Origin: Shimia sp. SK013
GTDB taxonomy: Bacteria; Pseudomonadota; Alphaproteobacteria; Rhodobacterales; Rhodobacteraceae
DNA length: 64,000 bases
NCBI RefSeq assembly: GCF_001292625.1
Contig: NZ_LAJH01000014.1
Span: 1-64,000, forward strand
Direction: 5' to 3'
Shown: one piece after another, positions 24,235 to 35,334 of the stretch
Layout: the number at the start of each line of letters is the position of its first letter
Position numbering within the stretch: the first letter of the stretch is position 1
The notes under the pieces: generated by a model
What the model saw: the letters and a program-made list of their open reading frames with translations, nothing else
Told to the model about the DNA's origin: nothing
The model's database searches: none
Position numbers and translations under genes: made by a program

Positions 24235-25092
24235 TCACAGGTCCCGTTTGTCTAAGGCATCCCCACGCATCATACCCATCAGCTCCGCACCCGGCATCGC
24301 CTCTGCGGCATACCCAAACGACCCCTGCCCTAAAATTTCGGCCGCGGCGCGCTGCAGCGCACCATAAGCAGCCCGCGCCATCGACCCGCCCACGCTGATC
24401 CGCGCCACGCCCGCCTCTTGTAGCTCAGTCACCGAATACAATGGCGCCCGCAGCCCCATCACAACGTTCACCGGCTTATCAACTTCGGCACAAACCGTCC
24501 TGATCGCATCCAGATCGGGCAACGCCGGTGCATAAAGAACATCCGCACCCGCCTCACCGTAAGCCTGCAATCGCGCAATCGTGTCTCTCAGGTCAGGCCG
24601 CCCGACAAGATAGTTCTCCGACCGCGCCGTCAAAACAAACCCAACCTCCTGCGCCGCCTCTACCGCCGCCGCGACGCGGTCCGCCGCTTCTGCAATCTCG
24701 TAAACGCCGCCGTCCGGCCCGCCAGTCACATCCTCGATTGAGCCCCCCGCCAAACCGACGCCAGCCGCCAGCCGCACGGTTTCCGCGCAAACCTCAGGCG
24801 CAGGCCCGAAGCCATCCTCAAGGTCTGCCGAGACCGGCACATCAACTGCCGCCACAATCGCCGCCGCGTTTTCAAGAATCATTGCCCGCGACACAGCCGC
24901 CACCCCGTCGCGATATCCTGCACTCACCGCGCATCCCGCGCTGGTTGTGGCCAACGCCGCGAATCCCATCTGCTCCAGTATCCGCGCCGACCCTGCATCC
25001 CATGGGTTGGGCATCACAAAACCCGCGCCCATTTTATGCATTTCTTGGAATCGGGCCGATCCGGCCCTTTGCATTTCGCCATTCTCACCCAT
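24235..25092 (-). CDS. Isocitrate lyase/PEP mutase-family enzyme
   Basis: This 285-residue TIM-barrel enzyme has the family signatures [30 protein letters not shown] and SADLEDGFG (metal-binding acidic pair), then [16 protein letters not shown] and [12 protein letters not shown]. The subgroup includes oxaloacetate decarboxylase-like and C-C lyase enzymes. The KKCGH catalytic loop of true isocitrate lyase is not present. The precise substrate is unknown. The ATG at 25092 has GGAGGA upstream. It is divergent from ctaD, with 229 bases shared between them. Confidence 0.85.
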
Positions 25093-29870: not shown

Positions 29871-30005
29871 GGGCGCACCTCCTTGCAGGTCGCGCCGTCG
29901 GTTGCGCTTGCCAACAAACGCTGCGGCAACGACGCCACTCTCCTCAGGTCAAAGGGTGCGCTGACAAGGGTTCAAGAGCAAGCCCGTCGGGTAAGTAAGC
30001 GCACA

Positions 30006-30033
30006 CAAAAAAAGGGGCACCCTTTGGCGCCCC
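30006..30033 (-). terminator. Rho-independent terminator of apbC
   Basis: Read on the minus strand, GGGGCGCC-AAAG-GGTGCCCC is followed by TTTTTTTT. It lies 24 bases past the apbC stop codon. Confidence 0.9.
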
Positions 30034-30057
30034 TTCACTGTGTTCTGTTGCCCGTGT

Positions 30058-31149
30058 TTAGGCCATGCCCCCACGCACCAGCCCTTCAGCAATCCGCGCA
30101 TACGCCTGCGCCATGTCGCTGTCGCCTGCGGCAATCGGCGTGCCGCCGTCGCCTGCCAGCCGTGTGTCCAGATCAATCGGCAAGGCCCCCAGCAGAGGCA
30201 CACCAATCTTCTCGGCCTCCGTCGCCACTCCGCCATGGCCAAAGATGTGAGATTCGTGTCCACACTTCGGGCAATGAAACAGGCTCATGTTTTCGATCAG
30301 GCCCAACACCGGCGTCTTAAGCTGATCAAACATGCCCAACGCTTTGCGCGCATCCAAAAGCGCCACATCCTGCGGCGTGCTCACCACGATTGCGCCTGTC
30401 AGTTCTGTCTTCTGACACAGCGTCAACTGCACGTCGCCCGTGCCGGGCGGCAGATCAACGATCAACACGTCCAGATCGCCCCACTGCACCTGCGTCAGCA
30501 TCTGCTGCAACGCGCCCATCAACATCGGCCCGCGCCAGACCACCGGCTTGTCCTCCTCCAGCATGAACCCAAGCGACATGATCGTGACGCCATGCGCGTG
30601 CAGCGGCAGGATTGTTTTGCCATCCGGCGATGCGGGGCGTTTGTTCACGCCCATCATACGCGGCTGGCTTGGCCCATAGATGTCTGCGTCCAGCAAACCG
30701 ACCTTGCGCCCTTGCTTGGCCAACGCCACCGCAAGGTTGGACGACACCGTGGATTTGCCGACGCCCCCCTTGCCGGATCCAACCGCCAGAATGCGATCCA
30801 CACCGGCCACCTTCATCGGGCCGGCCTGCGGCTTGGGATGCCCGCCAATTTTCAGGCTCGGCGGCGCGGCAGGGGCCGCAGCAGGCGCTGCCTGCCCGCC
30901 CGAATGCGCGGTCAACACCACAGACACCTCATTGACGCCATCCATTGATGCCACCAAATCCTCGGCCGCCTGGCGCAACGGTCCCATTTTCTGCGCGATC
31001 TCCGCGTTTGGCGCCTCGATCACAAACCGCACCACACCTTCCGTTACGGAAAGCGCCCGCACAAAATCATGCGACACAAGATCCCCGCCATCCGGCAGAG
31101 AGATCCGACGTAACGTCGCAAGCACTGACTCTTTTGTTACCGCCACCAT
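30058..31149 (-). CDS. apbC: Mrp/ApbC iron-sulfur carrier ATPase
   Basis: This 363-residue P-loop ATPase delivers Fe-S clusters to apo-proteins. An N-terminal DUF59/MIP18-like domain (residues 1-95) is followed by an Ala/Pro linker and the deviant Walker A VGSGKGGVGKST. The C-terminal CPKC motif (HCPKCGHES) binds the bridging cluster between subunits. I choose the ATG at 31149, with GAGG upstream, over one 39 bases earlier. It is divergent from the DUF1127-sRNA operon. Confidence 0.94.
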   Translation of the reverse strand: MVAVTKESVLATLRRISLPDGGDLVSHDFVRALSVTEGVVRFVIEAPNAEIAQKMGPLRQAAEDLVASMDGVNEVSVVLTAHSGGQAAPAAAPAAPPSLKIGGHPKPQAGPMKVAGVDRILAVGSGKGGVGKSTVSSNLAVALAKQGRKVGLLDADIYGPSQPRMMGVNKRPASPDGKTILPLHAHGVTIMSLGFMLEEDKPVVWRGPMLMGALQQMLTQVQWGDLDVLIVDLPPGTGDVQLTLCQKTELTGAIVVSTPQDVALLDARKALGMFDQLKTPVLGLIENMSLFHCPKCGHESHIFGHGGVATEAEKIGVPLLGALPIDLDTRLAGDGGTPIAAGDSDMAQAYARIAEGLVRGGMA

Positions 31150-31314
31150 TTTCCTCACTTTCTGCATTGCAGCATACTTTTTAGGCATGCTCTTTTTTAC
31201 ATTTCCTTCACAAATAGACCTTTGTTTTCCGTATCTTGCCTATTTTGTTGCGTTTTTCGAAGTGACGCCACGTCCCTATTCCACAGACGCATAGCTGCCT
31301 TGCACAGCCGGGTA

Positions 31315-31341
31315 TTGTGCAGTCGCAGCAACACCCTATAT
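31315..31341 (+). promoter_or_regulatory. Candidate promoter of the DUF1127-sRNA operon
   Basis: TTGTGC and CTATAT, 15 bases apart, lie about 55 bases upstream of the DUF1127 start. The equivalent R. sphaeroides operon is driven by RpoHI/RpoHII. The match is by eye and weak, and no transcription start is known. Confidence 0.3.
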
Positions 31342-31395
31342 CACCATCATCAAGACGAAACGAAACGAACACCGCACGATGCTCGAGGTATCAAG

Positions 31396-31614
31396 ATGGC
31401 ATATGTAACAAACACAAACACAGTGGCAACCGCCACCGAAGCCCGCGGCCTCTCGGTTCTGCTTTCGAACCTCGCAGAGAAATGGCGCCAACACCGCGTG
31501 TACCGCGAAACGTACACAGAGCTGATGAACCTGTCTGATCGCGATCTCGCTGATCTGGGTTTGAACCGCTCGATGATCCGTCGCCTGGCCACTGAGGCCA
31601 GCCGCGAACACTAA
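31396..31614 (+). CDS. DUF1127 protein (CcaF1-like) heading an sRNA operon
   Basis: This 72-residue basic protein has the DUF1127 core at residues 35-66 (HRVYRETYTELMNLSDRDLAD then LGLNRSMIRRLA). In R. sphaeroides a DUF1127 protein (CcaF1) is encoded directly upstream of the CcsR sRNAs, binds RNA and affects their maturation. The same order is seen here, as the first CUCCUCCC hairpin begins seven bases after the stop codon. GAGG lies upstream of the ATG at 31396. Expression under oxidative or heat stress is expected by analogy. Confidence 0.88.
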   Translation: MAYVTNTNTVATATEARGLSVLLSNLAEKWRQHRVYRETYTELMNLSDRDLADLGLNRSMIRRLATEASREH

Positions 31615-31620
31615 AAATTT

Positions 31621-31690
31621 CGGAAAGCCGCTCCTCCCTCAGGCTTTCCAATTCAGCGGTGATGTCTCTCCTCCTCCCTGACGTCACCGC
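31621..31690 (+). ncRNA. CcsR/cuckoo-like sRNA unit 1
   Basis: There are two hairpins. The first (31622-31649) has stem GGAAAGCC/GGCTTTCC and a loop with CTCCTCCC. The second (31656-31690) has an 11-bp stem GCGGTGATGTC/GACGTCACCGC and the loop TCTCCTCCTCCCT. The stems differ between units but the loops are nearly identical, so the loop is the conserved part. A GGGCC-AACA-GGCCC mini-hairpin (31701-31714) follows. Confidence 0.85.
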
Positions 31691-31720
31691 AAAGAACACC
31701 GGGCCAACAGGCCCAACCGG

Positions 31721-31800
31721 GATCAAGATCTCCTCTCCTCCTCCCTGGAGGTCTTGTGACTAGAGCGACGGCGCCTCTCCTCCTCCCTGGCGTCGTCGCA
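31721..31800 (+). ncRNA. CcsR/cuckoo-like sRNA unit 2
   Basis: There are two hairpins, with stems CAAGATCTCC/GGAGGTCTTG (31724-31756) and GCGACGGCGCC/GGCGTCGTCGC (31765-31799). Each displays the identical 13-base loop TCTCCTCCTCCCT. G-U pairs replace G-C at equivalent places, so base pairing is kept while sequence changes. A GGGCC-ACAT-GGCCC linker hairpin (31811-31824) separates it from unit 3. Confidence 0.87.
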
Positions 31801-31830
31801 CCAGAACATCGGGCCACATGGCCCAACGGG

Positions 31831-31910
31831 ATCAAAGGTTCCTCTCCTCCTCCCTGGGACCTTTGAAACTAGAGCGGCGACACCTCTCCTCCTCCCTGGT
31901 GTCGTCGCGC
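31831..31910 (+). ncRNA. CcsR/cuckoo-like sRNA unit 3
   Basis: There are two hairpins, TCAAAGGTTCC/GGGACCTTTGA (31832-31866) and GCGGCGACACC/GGTGTCGTCGC (31874-31908), both with loop TCTCCTCCTCCCT. The ACTAGAG spacer between the hairpins is the same as in unit 2, which points to duplication of a two-hairpin unit. A GGGCC-GATCC-GGCCC linker (31921-31935) follows. Confidence 0.87.
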
Positions 31911-31942
31911 TACCAACATCGGGCCGATCCGGCCCACCGTAA

Positions 31943-32031
31943 TCGGGGCCTCCCTCTCCTCCTCCCTGGGATGTCCTGACACAAGAACGGCGGCGCCTTC
32001 CTCCTCCCTGGCGCCGCCGTTTCTTTTTTTT
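31943..32031 (+). ncRNA. CcsR/cuckoo-like sRNA unit 4 with terminator
   Basis: The first hairpin (31943-31979) has a 12-bp stem with one mismatch and two G-U pairs, and the same TCTCCTCCTCCCT loop. The second (31986-32021) has a perfect 12-bp stem AACGGCGGCGCC/GGCGCCGCCGTT with loop TTCCTCCTCCCT. It is followed by TTCTTTTTTTT, so it also serves as the rho-independent terminator of the whole operon. Confidence 0.88.
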
Positions 32032-32073
32032 CAAGGCTGTTTTCGGGGCCAGCTCCCCTATTTTTTTAAAGCG

Positions 32074-32703
32074 TCAAAGCCCAGCGCTCGGCCGCGCCTT
32101 CACACGCTCAAACCACGCCTGCGAGGCCGCATTTTCCTCCGGAATCCCCTGCTTCACGATCCGCGCAAAATCGCAGAATACAAACCCCGTGATATCGGCC
32201 ATCGTGAAATCACCCCCCGCAAGGAACGCACTTTCCTTAAGCCGCACCTCCAACGTGTCAAAGAACCGTCCCAGCCGCAGAATGCCCCGCTCCGCCAACG
32301 CCGGAATCTGCGCGTAATCCACTGCCCCCGGCAACGCCCGCCCCTTCAGAGCAGGCGTCGAATTGCGCAAAGCTTCTGCGATCGCCATTCCGGCGTGAAA
32401 CTCGCAGATCGCGTTCCACATCAAAACTTTGCCTTTTTCGTCAGGTGTCACGCCCATTAACGGCGGCTCTGGGCACATCGCTTCCAAATAGCCCGCAATG
32501 GCGATGTTTTCAGTCAGCGGTGCACCTTCATCGGTCACAAGAACCGGAACGGTGCCATGGGGGTTGATTGCCAAAAATTCGGGTTTCCGGTGCGCATCGT
32601 TGCGCAAATCCACCTGCTGAACCTCCACATCAACGCCTTTTTCAGCAATGAACATGCGTGCGCGCCGCGGGCTGGGCGCTGTGGAACAGTCGTAAAAGAT
32701 CAT
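32074..32703 (-). CDS. Glutathione S-transferase family protein
   Basis: This is a 209-residue protein. The N-terminal thioredoxin-like domain (residues 1-80) has CSTAPSPRRARMFIAEKG, the cis-Pro motif GTVPVLV and the glutathione-binding TENIAIAGYLE. The C-terminal helical domain has the N-capping FTMADITGFVF. Serine or cysteine around residues 6-7 may be catalytic. The class is close to bacterial GSTs of unknown substrate. It is convergent with the sRNA operon, whose terminator lies between. Confidence 0.92.
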   Translation of the reverse strand: MIFYDCSTAPSPRRARMFIAEKGVDVEVQQVDLRNDAHRKPEFLAINPHGTVPVLVTDEGAPLTENIAIAGYLEAMCPEPPLMGVTPDEKGKVLMWNAICEFHAGMAIAEALRNSTPALKGRALPGAVDYAQIPALAERGILRLGRFFDTLEVRLKESAFLAGGDFTMADITGFVFCDFARIVKQGIPEENAASQAWFERVKARPSAGL

Positions 32704-32814
32704 GAAGGCCTCCTCTGGTTGGTTCCAGCCAACGCCGCAAGTGGCAGTCTGTCAATCGGATCACCGCAAGCTGACGCCTCGTCAAAGCCTCGGCATGCAG
32801 AGCACACCCGCCGC

Positions 32815-32877
32815 TTCCTCTTGCCAAAAGTATCCTGGGGGGAGCGTCAGCTTGCTGGCGCGGGGGCAAAGCCCCAA
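32815..32877 (+). repeat. REP-like intergenic element, copy 2
   Basis: TTGCCAAAAGTATCCTGGGG is followed by GCGTCAGC-TT-GCTGGCGC (32844-32861) and GGGGC-AAA-GCCCC (32863-32875). It has the same order as copy 1. It lies in the space between the GST start and the helicase stop. Confidence 0.75.
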
Positions 32878-32898
32878 TCCACCCATCAAAAACCGCAC

Positions 32899-35334
32899 TC
32901 AGAATGGAACATCATCCGGTGCCGTTACAAATCGTGCGACAACTTTTTTCTCGCCCGCTTTTTCGAATTTCACGGTCAGCTTGTCACCCTCGATATCGGT
33001 CACAACGCCATAACCGAATTTTTGGTGAAACACCCGATCATCAACGGTGAAACTGCTCACCGCTGTCAAATCAATCGCCGCCGCTTTGCTTTCCTTGGGT
33101 TGGCTGGTGCCATATTGCCCGCTGCGCGATTGCATCCGCTTCCAACCGGGCGAATTATAGACATTCGCGTCCGCAACTTTCGCCTCAAGCCCCGACGACA
33201 TGCCTCCGCCTCCGCCTCCACCGGTATGCCCATACAGACCCGGCGGCGTCAGCACCTCGATATTCTCTTCGCTCAGCTCATCAATAAACCGACTGGGCAT
33301 CTGGCTCTGCCATTGCCCAAACACGCGCCGATTGCCCGCGAAAGAAATCGTGCAGACCTCTTCGGCCCGCGTGATGCCGACATAGGCCAGTCGTCGCTCT
33401 TCCTCGAGTCCCTTCAGCCCGCTTTCGTCCATCGACCGCTGGCTTGGAAACAGACCGTCTTCCCAGCCCGGCAAAAACACCGCTGGGAACTCCAGCCCCT
33501 TGGCGCCGTGCAGGGTCATTATGGTGACTTTCTCGCCGTCGTTGTTGTCATCCCGATCCATGATCAGGCTGACGTGCTCCAAAAACCCTTGAAGATTATC
33601 AAAGCTTTCCAACGCTTTGACCAATTCCTTCAGGTTTTCCAACCGTCCCGGCGCTTCAGGCGTTTTGTCGTTCTGCCACATGGCGGTATAGCCCGACTCA
33701 TCCAAAATGACTTGTGCCAGTTCCACATGTCCAAGCTCGGGCGCACCTTCCTGCAAGCGTGTCGCCTGCACCGTGGCCCCATCGTCAATCACCGCATCGT
33801 CATCCAGAGCGACCTCAATCACTGGCGCGCGCCCCTGCCGTTGCCAACGCGCCACGCCATCCAGCAAGATCGCCAGCTCTTTGGCCCCTTTGCCGCCGAT
33901 GCCCTTTTCCTCAAGCAGAATCCGCGCGCCTTCCAAAAGGCTCACCCCATTGGCCCGTGCGCAGGTCTGGATCTTTTGCTGCGCCACATTGCCCAGCCCA
34001 CGTTTGGGCGTGTTCACAATCCGCTCAAACGCCAGATCATCTTCAGACGACACCACCAGCCGGAAATAGGCCATCGCATCGCGAATTTCGAGCCGCTCGT
34101 AAAACCGCGGCCCGCCAATCACCCGATACGGCAGGCCAATCGTCAGGAACCGGTCCTCAAAGGCGCGCATCTGGTGGCTCGCGCGCACTAGAATTGCCAT
34201 ATCTTCCAGCGACTTGCGCTCCATTCCACGCGTGCCGCGCTGCATCGCTTCAATTTCTTCCCCGACCCAGCGCGCTTCTTCTTCGCCGTCCCAATGGCCG
34301 ATCAGACGCACCTTCTCGCCGTCTTCCGCCTCGGTCCACAATTCCTTGCCAAGCCGGTTTTCATTGCCGCGAATGACCGAACTCGCCGCCGCCAGAATAT
34401 TGCCTGTCGAGCGGTAATTCTGCTCCAGCCGCACCACATGCGCGCCCTCGAAATCTTTCTCAAACCGCAGGATGTTGCCCACCTCGGCCCCGCGCCAGCC
34501 GTAAATCGACTGGTCGTCATCGCCCACACAACAGATGTTCTTGTGCCCCTGCGCCAACAGCCGCAGCCACAGATACTGCGCGACGTTGGTATCCTGATAC
34601 TCGTCGACCAGAATATAGCGGAACCAGCGCTGATACTGCGCCAGCACATCGGGGTGTTGTTGAAAAATTGTCACCACATGCAGCAGCAAATCGCCAAAGT
34701 CACAGGCATTCAGCTCTTTCAAGCGCACCTGATACTGCGCATAAAGCTCGCCGCCGCGATGGTTATAAGCCCCCGCATCCGCCGCCGACAGCTTCTCCGG
34801 CGTCAGCGCCTTGTTCTTCCAGCCATCAACCAACGACGCCAACTGACGCGCCGGCCAGCGTTTGTCGTCAATATTGGCGGCTGACACCAACTGCTTGAGC
34901 AGCCGCAGCTGATCGTCTGTGTCCAGAATAGTGAAATTGCTCTTCAGCCCGACCAGTTCCGCATGCCGCCGCAATAGCTTCACACAAATCGCGTGGAACG
35001 TGCCCAACCACTGAATTCCCTCGATCTGATGGCCCAACATGTTGCCAACGCGGGTCTTCATCTCCTTGGCGGCCTTGTTGGTAAACGTCACCGCCAAAAT
35101 CTCGTTTGGCCGCGCCTTGTTCATGTTGAGAAGATGCACAATCCGCGCCGTCAGCGCCTTGGTCTTGCCCGTGCCAGCCCCCGCCAGCATCAAAACAGGC
35201 CCGTCCAATTGCTCCACCGCTTCGCGTTGCGCGGGGTTCAGCTCGTTCAGGTATGGCATCGGCCGCGCCATCATCGCGCGGGCCGACAGGGATGCGCCTT
35301 CAAAGGCGGCGAATTCGTCGTCAAAACTGCTCAT
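32899..35334 (-). CDS. UvrD/PcrA-type DNA helicase
   Basis: This 811-residue superfamily 1A helicase works 3'-5' in repair and replication restart. The motifs are Q (LNPAQREAV), Walker A LAGAGTGKT, motif Ia TFTNKAA, Walker B VDEYQDTN, motif III GDDDQSIYGWRGA, motif IV QNYRST, motif V TLHGAKGLEF and motif VI VGITRAEE. The C terminus has the PcrA/UvrD tudor-like domain (FTVDDRVFHQKFGYGVVTDI), which binds RNA polymerase in PcrA. A glycine-rich stretch precedes it. The ATG at 35334 begins the family-like sequence. The 99 bases of open frame upstream are not conserved-looking. Confidence 0.94.
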   Translation of the reverse strand: MSSFDDEFAAFEGASLSARAMMARPMPYLNELNPAQREAVEQLDGPVLMLAGAGTGKTKALTARIVHLLNMNKARPNEILAVTFTNKAAKEMKTRVGNMLGHQIEGIQWLGTFHAICVKLLRRHAELVGLKSNFTILDTDDQLRLLKQLVSAANIDDKRWPARQLASLVDGWKNKALTPEKLSAADAGAYNHRGGELYAQYQVRLKELNACDFGDLLLHVVTIFQQHPDVLAQYQRWFRYILVDEYQDTNVAQYLWLRLLAQGHKNICCVGDDDQSIYGWRGAEVGNILRFEKDFEGAHVVRLEQNYRSTGNILAAASSVIRGNENRLGKELWTEAEDGEKVRLIGHWDGEEEARWVGEEIEAMQRGTRGMERKSLEDMAILVRASHQMRAFEDRFLTIGLPYRVIGGPRFYERLEIRDAMAYFRLVVSSEDDLAFERIVNTPKRGLGNVAQQKIQTCARANGVSLLEGARILLEEKGIGGKGAKELAILLDGVARWQRQGRAPVIEVALDDDAVIDDGATVQATRLQEGAPELGHVELAQVILDESGYTAMWQNDKTPEAPGRLENLKELVKALESFDNLQGFLEHVSLIMDRDDNNDGEKVTIMTLHGAKGLEFPAVFLPGWEDGLFPSQRSMDESGLKGLEEERRLAYVGITRAEEVCTISFAGNRRVFGQWQSQMPSRFIDELSEENIEVLTPPGLYGHTGGGGGGGMSSGLEAKVADANVYNSPGWKRMQSRSGQYGTSQPKESKAAAIDLTAVSSFTVDDRVFHQKFGYGVVTDIEGDKLTVKFEKAGEKKVVARFVTAPDDVPF

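Follow-up and report, generated by a model that had tools for sequence, protein, structure and literature searches.

A ccaF1-CcsR-type small RNA operon in Shimia sp. SK013 and its relatives, with covarying linker hairpins and a conserved promoter box

Results and Discussion

Analysis of the window, the whole 64,000-nucleotide stretch of Shimia sp. SK013 DNA considered here (64 kb of contig NZ_LAJH01000014.1), identified a locus that is, judged by sequence and gene order, orthologous to the ccaF1-CcsR1-4 operon of Rhodobacter sphaeroides (the CIN1 locus, with its cuckoo RNAs). A short DUF1127 gene is followed by eight CUCCUCCC-loop hairpins arranged in four pairs, three spacers and a terminator (Table 1). 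This locus very probably gives rise to a stress-induced precursor that is cut, with help from the DUF1127 protein, into four small RNAs (sRNAs) whose loops pair with ribosome-binding sites. An RpoH-type promoter responding to heat and oxidative stress would yield a single precursor, namely the mRNA of a DUF1127 RNA-binding protein carrying four tandem two-hairpin sRNAs in its 3' part. An endonuclease, which in R. sphaeroides is RNase E aided by CcaF1, would cut in the unpaired, A-rich stretches on either side of the linker hairpins and release units of about 80–95 nt. Once exposed, the CUCCUCCC loops of these units would base-pair with certain mRNAs at their purine-rich ribosome-binding sites and so tune carbon and redox metabolism under stress. 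Our analysis documents the anatomy of the locus, its orthology, the covariation of its hairpins and the conservation of its promoter box. RpoH control, maturation by RNase E and CcaF1, and metabolic targets are carried over by orthology from the papers on R. sphaeroides, and the roles of the linkers, the box and the loop targets in Shimia sp. SK013 are those that we infer below.

Anatomy of the locus

The ccaF1-like gene is an ATG frame of 72 codons (31396–31611; stop codon 31612–31614), and residues 26–62 of its product matched PF06568 with 49.1 bits against a cut-off of 23.3, which bears out the DUF1127 gene proposed in an earlier note on this DNA. The array lies directly downstream of this gene and in the same orientation, as in the CIN1 or ccaF1-CcsR locus, and it is convergent to two neighbours that we take to be a GST-like gene and uvrD. 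Only one of the five DUF1127 genes of the genome carries an array; the four others (L157, L159, L160 and L161) stand without one, and two of these four are near neighbours on contig C16.

The loop core CTCCTCCCT occurred eight times in the window, always on the + strand and always inside 31631–32009, in comparison to a mean of 0.32 and a maximum of 3 copies in 100 shuffles. Folding of the pair units gave z values of -6.5, -3.8, -5.4 and -6.1 (units 1 to 4), each reached by 0 of 200 shuffles, and with the eight loop cores this upholds the reading of eight hairpins in four pairs. The loops had also been called nearly invariant: the 13-mer TCTCCTCCTCCCT is exact in six of the eight hairpins, and hairpin 1 (GCTCCTCCCTCA) and hairpin 8 (TTCCTCCTCCCT) deviate from it. 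As in CcsR and cuckoo RNAs, the core is constant (8/8; the full CCUCCUCCC in 7/8) and the stems are variable and covarying. Gaps measured 3–8 nt within pairs and 30–33 nt between pairs. Two hairpins per unit, tandem units and an intrinsic terminator correspond to the form of CcsR RNAs, where the pairing pattern is taken from structure and the mature RNAs are predicted. By direct reading of the sequence, hairpin 8 has a 10-bp stem followed by TTTCTTTTTTTT, in agreement with the terminator hairpin previously placed at the array end; the terminator scan, which permits loops of 3–8 bases, did not list this hairpin with its loop of 12 bases.

Table 1. Features of the ccaF1-CcsR-type locus (positions in the window)
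Feature	Position	Strand	Evidence
Promoter box TTGTGCAGTCGCAGCA; TTG, putative RpoH -35; TGC-N4-GCAGCA, operator-like	31315..31330	+	conservation
Putative RpoH-type -10, CCCTATAT	31334..31341	+	sequence; consistent with TTG -35/-10 rules in the passages cited (PMC3441632, PMC10673084)
ccaF1-like gene, 72 aa, DUF1127	31396..31614	+	ORF and PF06568 match
Hairpin 1 (unit 1, first), loop GCTCCTCCCTCA	31622..31649	+	sequence, unit folding
Hairpin 2 (unit 1, second)	31656..31690	+	sequence, unit folding; second-hairpin stem covariation
Linker hairpin 1, GGGCC-AACA-GGCCC	31701..31714	+	pattern, comparative stem tests, folding
Hairpin 3 (unit 2, first)	31724..31756	+	sequence, unit folding
Hairpin 4 (unit 2, second)	31765..31799	+	sequence, covariation, unit folding
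Linker hairpin 2, GGGCC-ACAT-GGCCC	31811..31824	+	pattern, comparative stem tests, folding
Hairpin 5 (unit 3, first)	31832..31866	+	sequence, unit folding; unit 3 is the best CcsR1 match (31829–31913)
Hairpin 6 (unit 3, second)	31874..31908	+	sequence, covariation, unit folding
Linker hairpin 3, GGGCCG-ATC-CGGCCC	31921..31935	+	pattern, comparative stem tests, folding
Hairpin 7 (unit 4, first)	31943..31979	+	sequence, unit folding
Hairpin 8 (unit 4, second), also terminator stem	31988..32019	+	sequence, unit folding
Intrinsic terminator U-tract	32020..32031	+	sequence

The position of the array directly after the stop codon, with a terminator at its end, together with the existence of arrays of just two hairpins (6 of 60 loci, see below), would suit hairpins that act as attenuators of the DUF1127 mRNA or stabilise its 3' end and yield no trans-acting RNAs. 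We consider this very unlikely, as the orthologous units of R. sphaeroides accumulate as separate sRNAs in the passages cited (PMC10253847, PMC8625941) and a near-invariant loop sequence would not be needed for 3'-end stabilisation.

Relationship to the R. sphaeroides operon and Rfam families

An Rfam scan of 30000–34000 showed CcsR1 (RF02791) matches in all four units (38.9–46.2 bits) and an ar14 (RF02344) match of up to 54.3 bits, below the gathering scores of 65.3 and 58.8 respectively, and the whole-window scan at gathering gave nothing but two tRNAs. Given these sub-gathering scores, the locus is filed by its homologous locus and its structure and not as a formal Rfam member. CcsR1 was matched at E≤1e-5 in 219 of 295 family genomes, only 10 of which exceeded the Rfam cut-off, so that the low score here fits an Rfam model that is narrow around R. 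sphaeroides, and arrays of the family are mostly missed at Rfam cut-offs. None of 14 unrelated control genomes matched at E≤1e-5 but eight did so at a loose E≤1, indicating that weak CcsR1 matches mean nothing by themselves. The correspondence with the CcaF1-CcsR1-4 locus, already suggested in the earlier note, is supported by CcsR1 and ar14 being the best Rfam models, by conserved synteny and by the RpoH-like promoter sequence.

According to the passages cited (PMC10253847), ccaF1 lies ahead of CcsR1-4 in an R. sphaeroides operon that is driven by an RpoHI/RpoHII promoter, has a terminator and yields a precursor processed by RNase E. Hfq binding and induction by stress, further traits of CcsR RNAs, may apply here too. 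Both operons have, as far as the cited passages go (RF02791; PMC10253847, PMC8307010, PMC8625941), a short DUF1127 gene (71 aa in R. sphaeroides, 72 aa in Shimia sp. SK013), tandem two-hairpin RNAs, CCUCCUCCC loops, an RpoH-type promoter (putative here) and a terminator. The Shimia locus differs in its score below the Rfam cut-off and in its stems, and its expression and processing are predictions from sequence. The genome with the best CcsR1 match (G115, 106 bits) has the same promoter box as Shimia sp. SK013; its array comprises 14 hairpins with spacers of 30–44 nt, in comparison to spacers of 30–33 nt with a compact 5-bp hairpin here. The cuckoo family at the CIN1 locus of alphaproteobacteria (ar14, RF02344) likewise has a common loop motif, variable stems and short DUF1127 proteins nearby in the passages cited (PMC3927594; see also Reinkensmeier and Giegerich 2015, as cited in PMC10253847). 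Sinorhizobium SmelA075 and SmelA099 are described with three and four hairpins (PMC3927594), whereas the hairpins here come in pairs.

Distribution and conservation across Rhodobacteraceae

Two copies of CTCCTCCCT at a distance of 20–50 nt were found in all 25 genomes of the genus (own genome included) and in 20 of 35 other family genomes, in comparison to one of 40 genomes from the rest of the class, where the match gave no hairpin array. The DUF1127 protein shares 93% identity with its counterpart in Shimia sp. Alg240-R146 and 78% with the one in Shimia haliotis. From 60 loci collected via the DUF1127 protein alone, 58 had at least two stem-supported CCUCC hairpins downstream, and none of the 60 had them in 900-nt upstream control stretches. 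The two exceptions, L086 with no hairpin and L093 with one, both have uvrD downstream and represent an apparent loss of the array. These results indicate a wide distribution across the family, also among its marine members, of a stress sRNA operon that was characterised in a single phototroph.

Hairpin number ranged from 2 to 11 across the 58 array-bearing loci. The four units of the earlier reading are thus present here but do not constitute a defining number. Loops contained TCCTCCC in 271 of 282 hairpins, and conservation in relatives, set in advance as a test of the earlier reading, was borne out. Among 278 hairpins, arms were 97% paired with their own partner in comparison to 51% with the arms of other hairpins. 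RNAalifold showed both-side changes in 10 of 11 pairs of the second-hairpin stem, using a 47-sequence alignment of unit boundaries (47 of 56 stretches; L052, L053, L057, L061, L071, L073, L078, L089 and L092 were left out). Both results substantiate the co-varying stems. The gene neighbourhood is also maintained, with mrp (- strand) upstream in at least 42 and uvrD (- strand) downstream in at least 41 of the 60 loci, counts that are minima as the fetched loci span at most 6.2 kb. Some genomes (G158, G289 and G152) had CcsR1 matches spread over more than one contig or widely separated within a single one, and these may carry extra arrays outside the mrp-uvrD locus. Identical inter-loop segments within single genomes (G002, G049 and G050) point to recent tandem duplication.

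Loops and their possible targets

The resemblance of the loops to the anti-Shine-Dalgarno sequence, also pointed out earlier for this locus, is published for the cuckoo family, whose loop is described as an anti-SD motif in the passages cited (PMC3927594). A search of the draft assembly for the 16S tail with one exact pattern gave no match, and so provided nothing for a loop comparison. The perfect complement of the loop 9-mer, GGGAGGAGG, occurred at six genome sites outside the array in comparison to 12 for the reversed control. One of the six (L165, C11:50226) precedes an acyl-CoA synthetase gene at the position of a ribosome-binding site; the loci of the genus have GGGAGG at this site in 22 of 25 cases (by eye) and the full 9-mer in 6 of 25. 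These counts are set against the reversed 9-mer as background, and no loop target is claimed from them.

The constancy of the loops and the published anti-SD view both support pairing of the loops with GGAGG-type sites, with targets in Shimia sp. SK013 presumed by analogy. Alternatively, the array may be mainly a sponge, whose numerous identical CUCCUCCC loops soak up a protein (the DUF1127 protein, Hfq or a ribosomal factor) or pair with SD sites without specificity. The loops are far more constant than the stems, copy number varies widely and perfect complements are few, all of which would suit a sponge. However, flhR is a named mRNA target of the R. sphaeroides CcsRs in the passages cited (PMC8307010), and the two-hairpin form and the separating linkers are kept although a plain sponge would not need them. 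We therefore regard the sponge as unlikely and favor pairing with the ribosome-binding sites of selected mRNAs.

Linker hairpins

The GGGCC-n-GGCCC linkers that had been noticed between the pairs are confirmed, with one in each of the three spacers that separate the four pairs. A fourth match in the window (25053–25067, GGGCCGATCCGGCCC), which lies outside the locus and has the same sequence as linker 3, is probably due to chance. Folded alone, the three linker hairpins had z values of -1.2, -2.0 and -2.6, and 24, 11 and 5 of 200 shuffles respectively folded as well. Owing to this modest stability the case for the linker hairpins is a comparative one. Our linker survey covered 110 chains of at least two hairpins, a few of which may be chance, and yielded 182 linkers of 25–60 nt (173 distinct, from 92 arrays). 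A stem score of at least 14 (3 per G-C, 2 per A-T) was reached by 65% of the 182 linkers in comparison to 13% of dinucleotide shuffles. Covariation was evaluated without alignment on one linker of 26–36 nt per array (74 linkers, 64 after removal at >80% identity). With their own halves, 50 of the 64 linkers reached the stem score, in comparison to a mean of 11.9 and a maximum of 20 when halves were dealt among linkers (1000 permutations).

These 50 linkers fall into 21 stem classes, including GGGCC/GGCCC (10), CCGGC/GCCGG (9) and GGACC/GGTCC (7). Their geometry is far more uniform: the stem starts 8–10 nt after the second hairpin in 42, ends 6–9 nt before the next hairpin in 43, and encloses a loop of 3–5 nt in 42 of the 50. 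In the same 50 linkers, A+T made up 61% of the 5' flank and 52% of the 3' flank in comparison to 12% of the stem, and the flanks are A-rich. RNAalifold on the 47-sequence MAFFT alignment did not find the linker hairpin, the differing stem classes not being aligned together there. Overall, the comparative sequence data make the linker hairpin well supported as a structure, and the covariation supports the view that these hairpins matter; they may act as the processing signals proposed earlier.

The Rfam CcsR1 matches end before the linker hairpins and begin again after them, and RNase E of R. sphaeroides is described, in the passages cited, as preferring AU at the cleavage site (PMC6238624). 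The simplest interpretation of both is that cuts fall in the flanks. Most likely, the linker hairpins keep the units apart, insulate them from one another and determine where the cuts are made. A related explanation is that they have no processing role and are passive folding insulators against mispairing of near-identical neighbouring stems. This is quite possible, although we lean somewhat away from it: stem sequence varies freely while pairing is kept, and adjacent units may differ little or not at all, as the inter-loop segments described above illustrate, but the A+T bias of the flanks relative to the stem suits RNase E, and the CcsR1 matches stop and resume around the hairpins. Whether it serves processing or insulation, this covarying candidate element lends itself to clean mutation, and we retain the reading in which it both insulates the units and sets cut sites.

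Promoter and conserved box

The most constant upstream element of the family loci is TTGTGCAnnYGCAGCA, located about 3–5 bases before a -10-like CCTATnTT, CCCATGTT or CCCTATAT. In the scanned upstream stretches of the 60 named loci, TTGTGC was present in 49 and TTGTGC-N4-GCAGCA in 44. The latter was also found within 700 nt upstream of 49 of 53 arrays (from loci L005–L034 and L095–L124) that were chosen by array or Rfam match and whose species partly overlap the 60-locus set. In their promoter stretches, two genomes of the same genus agree with Shimia haliotis and Shimia abyssi. A TTG and a TAT element, spaced about as expected, make this a putative RpoHI/RpoHII promoter; the TTG element and the -10 conform to the rule for promoters of this class (PMC3441632, PMC10673084), and an RpoHI/RpoHII promoter is indicated for R. 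sphaeroides ccaF1 in a figure legend (PMC10253847). The passages cited on RpoH logos make no mention of GCAGCA as part of them (PMC3441632, PMC10673084). A sigma-70 promoter scan gave no match. Both the linker hairpin covariation and the promoter box go beyond the passages cited on the operon, although the primary CcsR, CcaF1 and cuckoo papers may describe linker hairpins or the box.

Genome-wide, 63 exact copies of the box were found in 43 of 61 family genomes, at 0–3 per genome, in comparison to none in the 61 genomes for the reversed control. Inspection of 53 of these sites, with the second site of a genome preferred, showed that 27 precede an array by the filter used; another two (L231, L244) are followed, as judged by eye, by a DUF1127-like frame. 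Other sites lie before genes for a PHB depolymerase (PF06850), a succinate dehydrogenase membrane subunit (Sdh_cyt), a patatin and four DUF1611-like proteins, one of which was scanned, and further sites are at genes and places without an evident link. In the own genome, a one-mismatch site precedes a zinc-type dehydrogenase gene, presumably that of crotonyl-CoA reductase. At up to two mismatches the own genome had 147 sites in comparison to 77 for the control, which shows that the box has looser relatives. The RpoH regulon comprises many promoters whereas the box is rare in each genome, and a generic RpoH spacer is therefore an unlikely explanation of the box.

PhaR as a candidate repressor

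The box most likely binds a repressor, and PhaR is the best candidate. TGC and GCA half-sites are common to the box and to PhaR/AniA operators in the passages cited (PMC12542648, PMC10888616). S. meliloti PhaR is reported there to bind YGCRNYGCR and to repress the sRNA MmgR (PMC12542648), and Paracoccus and R. sphaeroides PhaR are said to recognise TGC-rich regions (PMC10888616). A phasin gene was present in 19 of 20 fetched regions, and all 19 promoters had TGC-N3-GC(A/G), usually twice; TGC-N4-GCA was also found in 5 of the 19. Phasin promoters of the family thus have a 3-base spacer, and the ccaF1 box with 4 bases has one extra, a spacing that sets it apart from a canonical PhaR site.

Promoters of phaZ were surveyed at 31 loci (30 from 61 genomes, plus L241), eight of which, the own genome's included, were dropped as the start anchor was not found. 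Among 22 phaZ promoters not chosen by the box, TGC-N3-GCA occurred in 14, and TGCA-N2-YGCA without the N3 form in two; the L241 promoter, found through the box, had the N4 form only. At phaR starts, TGC-N4-GCA was found in 9 of 14 and TGC-N3-GC(A/G) in 5 of 14, counts that stand without a background control. The N4 form therefore occurs at PhaR-linked promoters, where the canonical spacing is N3. Three of 61 genomes had no phaZ match (G027, G038 and G057, the last 74% complete), and none had a box at an array; G027 has an array without a box (L018). As 17 of the 58 genomes with phaZ also lack an exact box, the association of box and phaZ is weak. A PhaR-type repressor at ccaF1 is plausible on these sequence data.

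A broader proposal is that two inputs control the ccaF1-CcsR operon of Rhodobacteraceae. RpoH sigma factors would turn it on under heat or oxidative stress, a repressor reporting PHB or carbon status (PhaR or a paralogue), bound at the near-invariant TTGTGCAnnYGCAGCA over the -35 and the spacer, would gate it, and linker hairpins of free sequence and fixed geometry would divide the transcript into sRNAs whose number varies. We hold this tentatively and consider it doubtful as a whole, and our estimate was lowered slightly by the independent phaZ count of the N4 form (2 of 22), a third case having been found through the box itself. The promoter box allows a direct test of whether carbon storage feeds the stress sRNA response. 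A search of the open-licence literature for PhaR control of ccaF1 gave no title among its top matches. Near the ccaF1 promoter, an N3-type PhaR-like site (CTGCATTGCAGCA, 31162–31174) was observed where the divergent mrp gene begins; it lies inside mrp if the start is 31188 and upstream of the gene if a later start codon is used.
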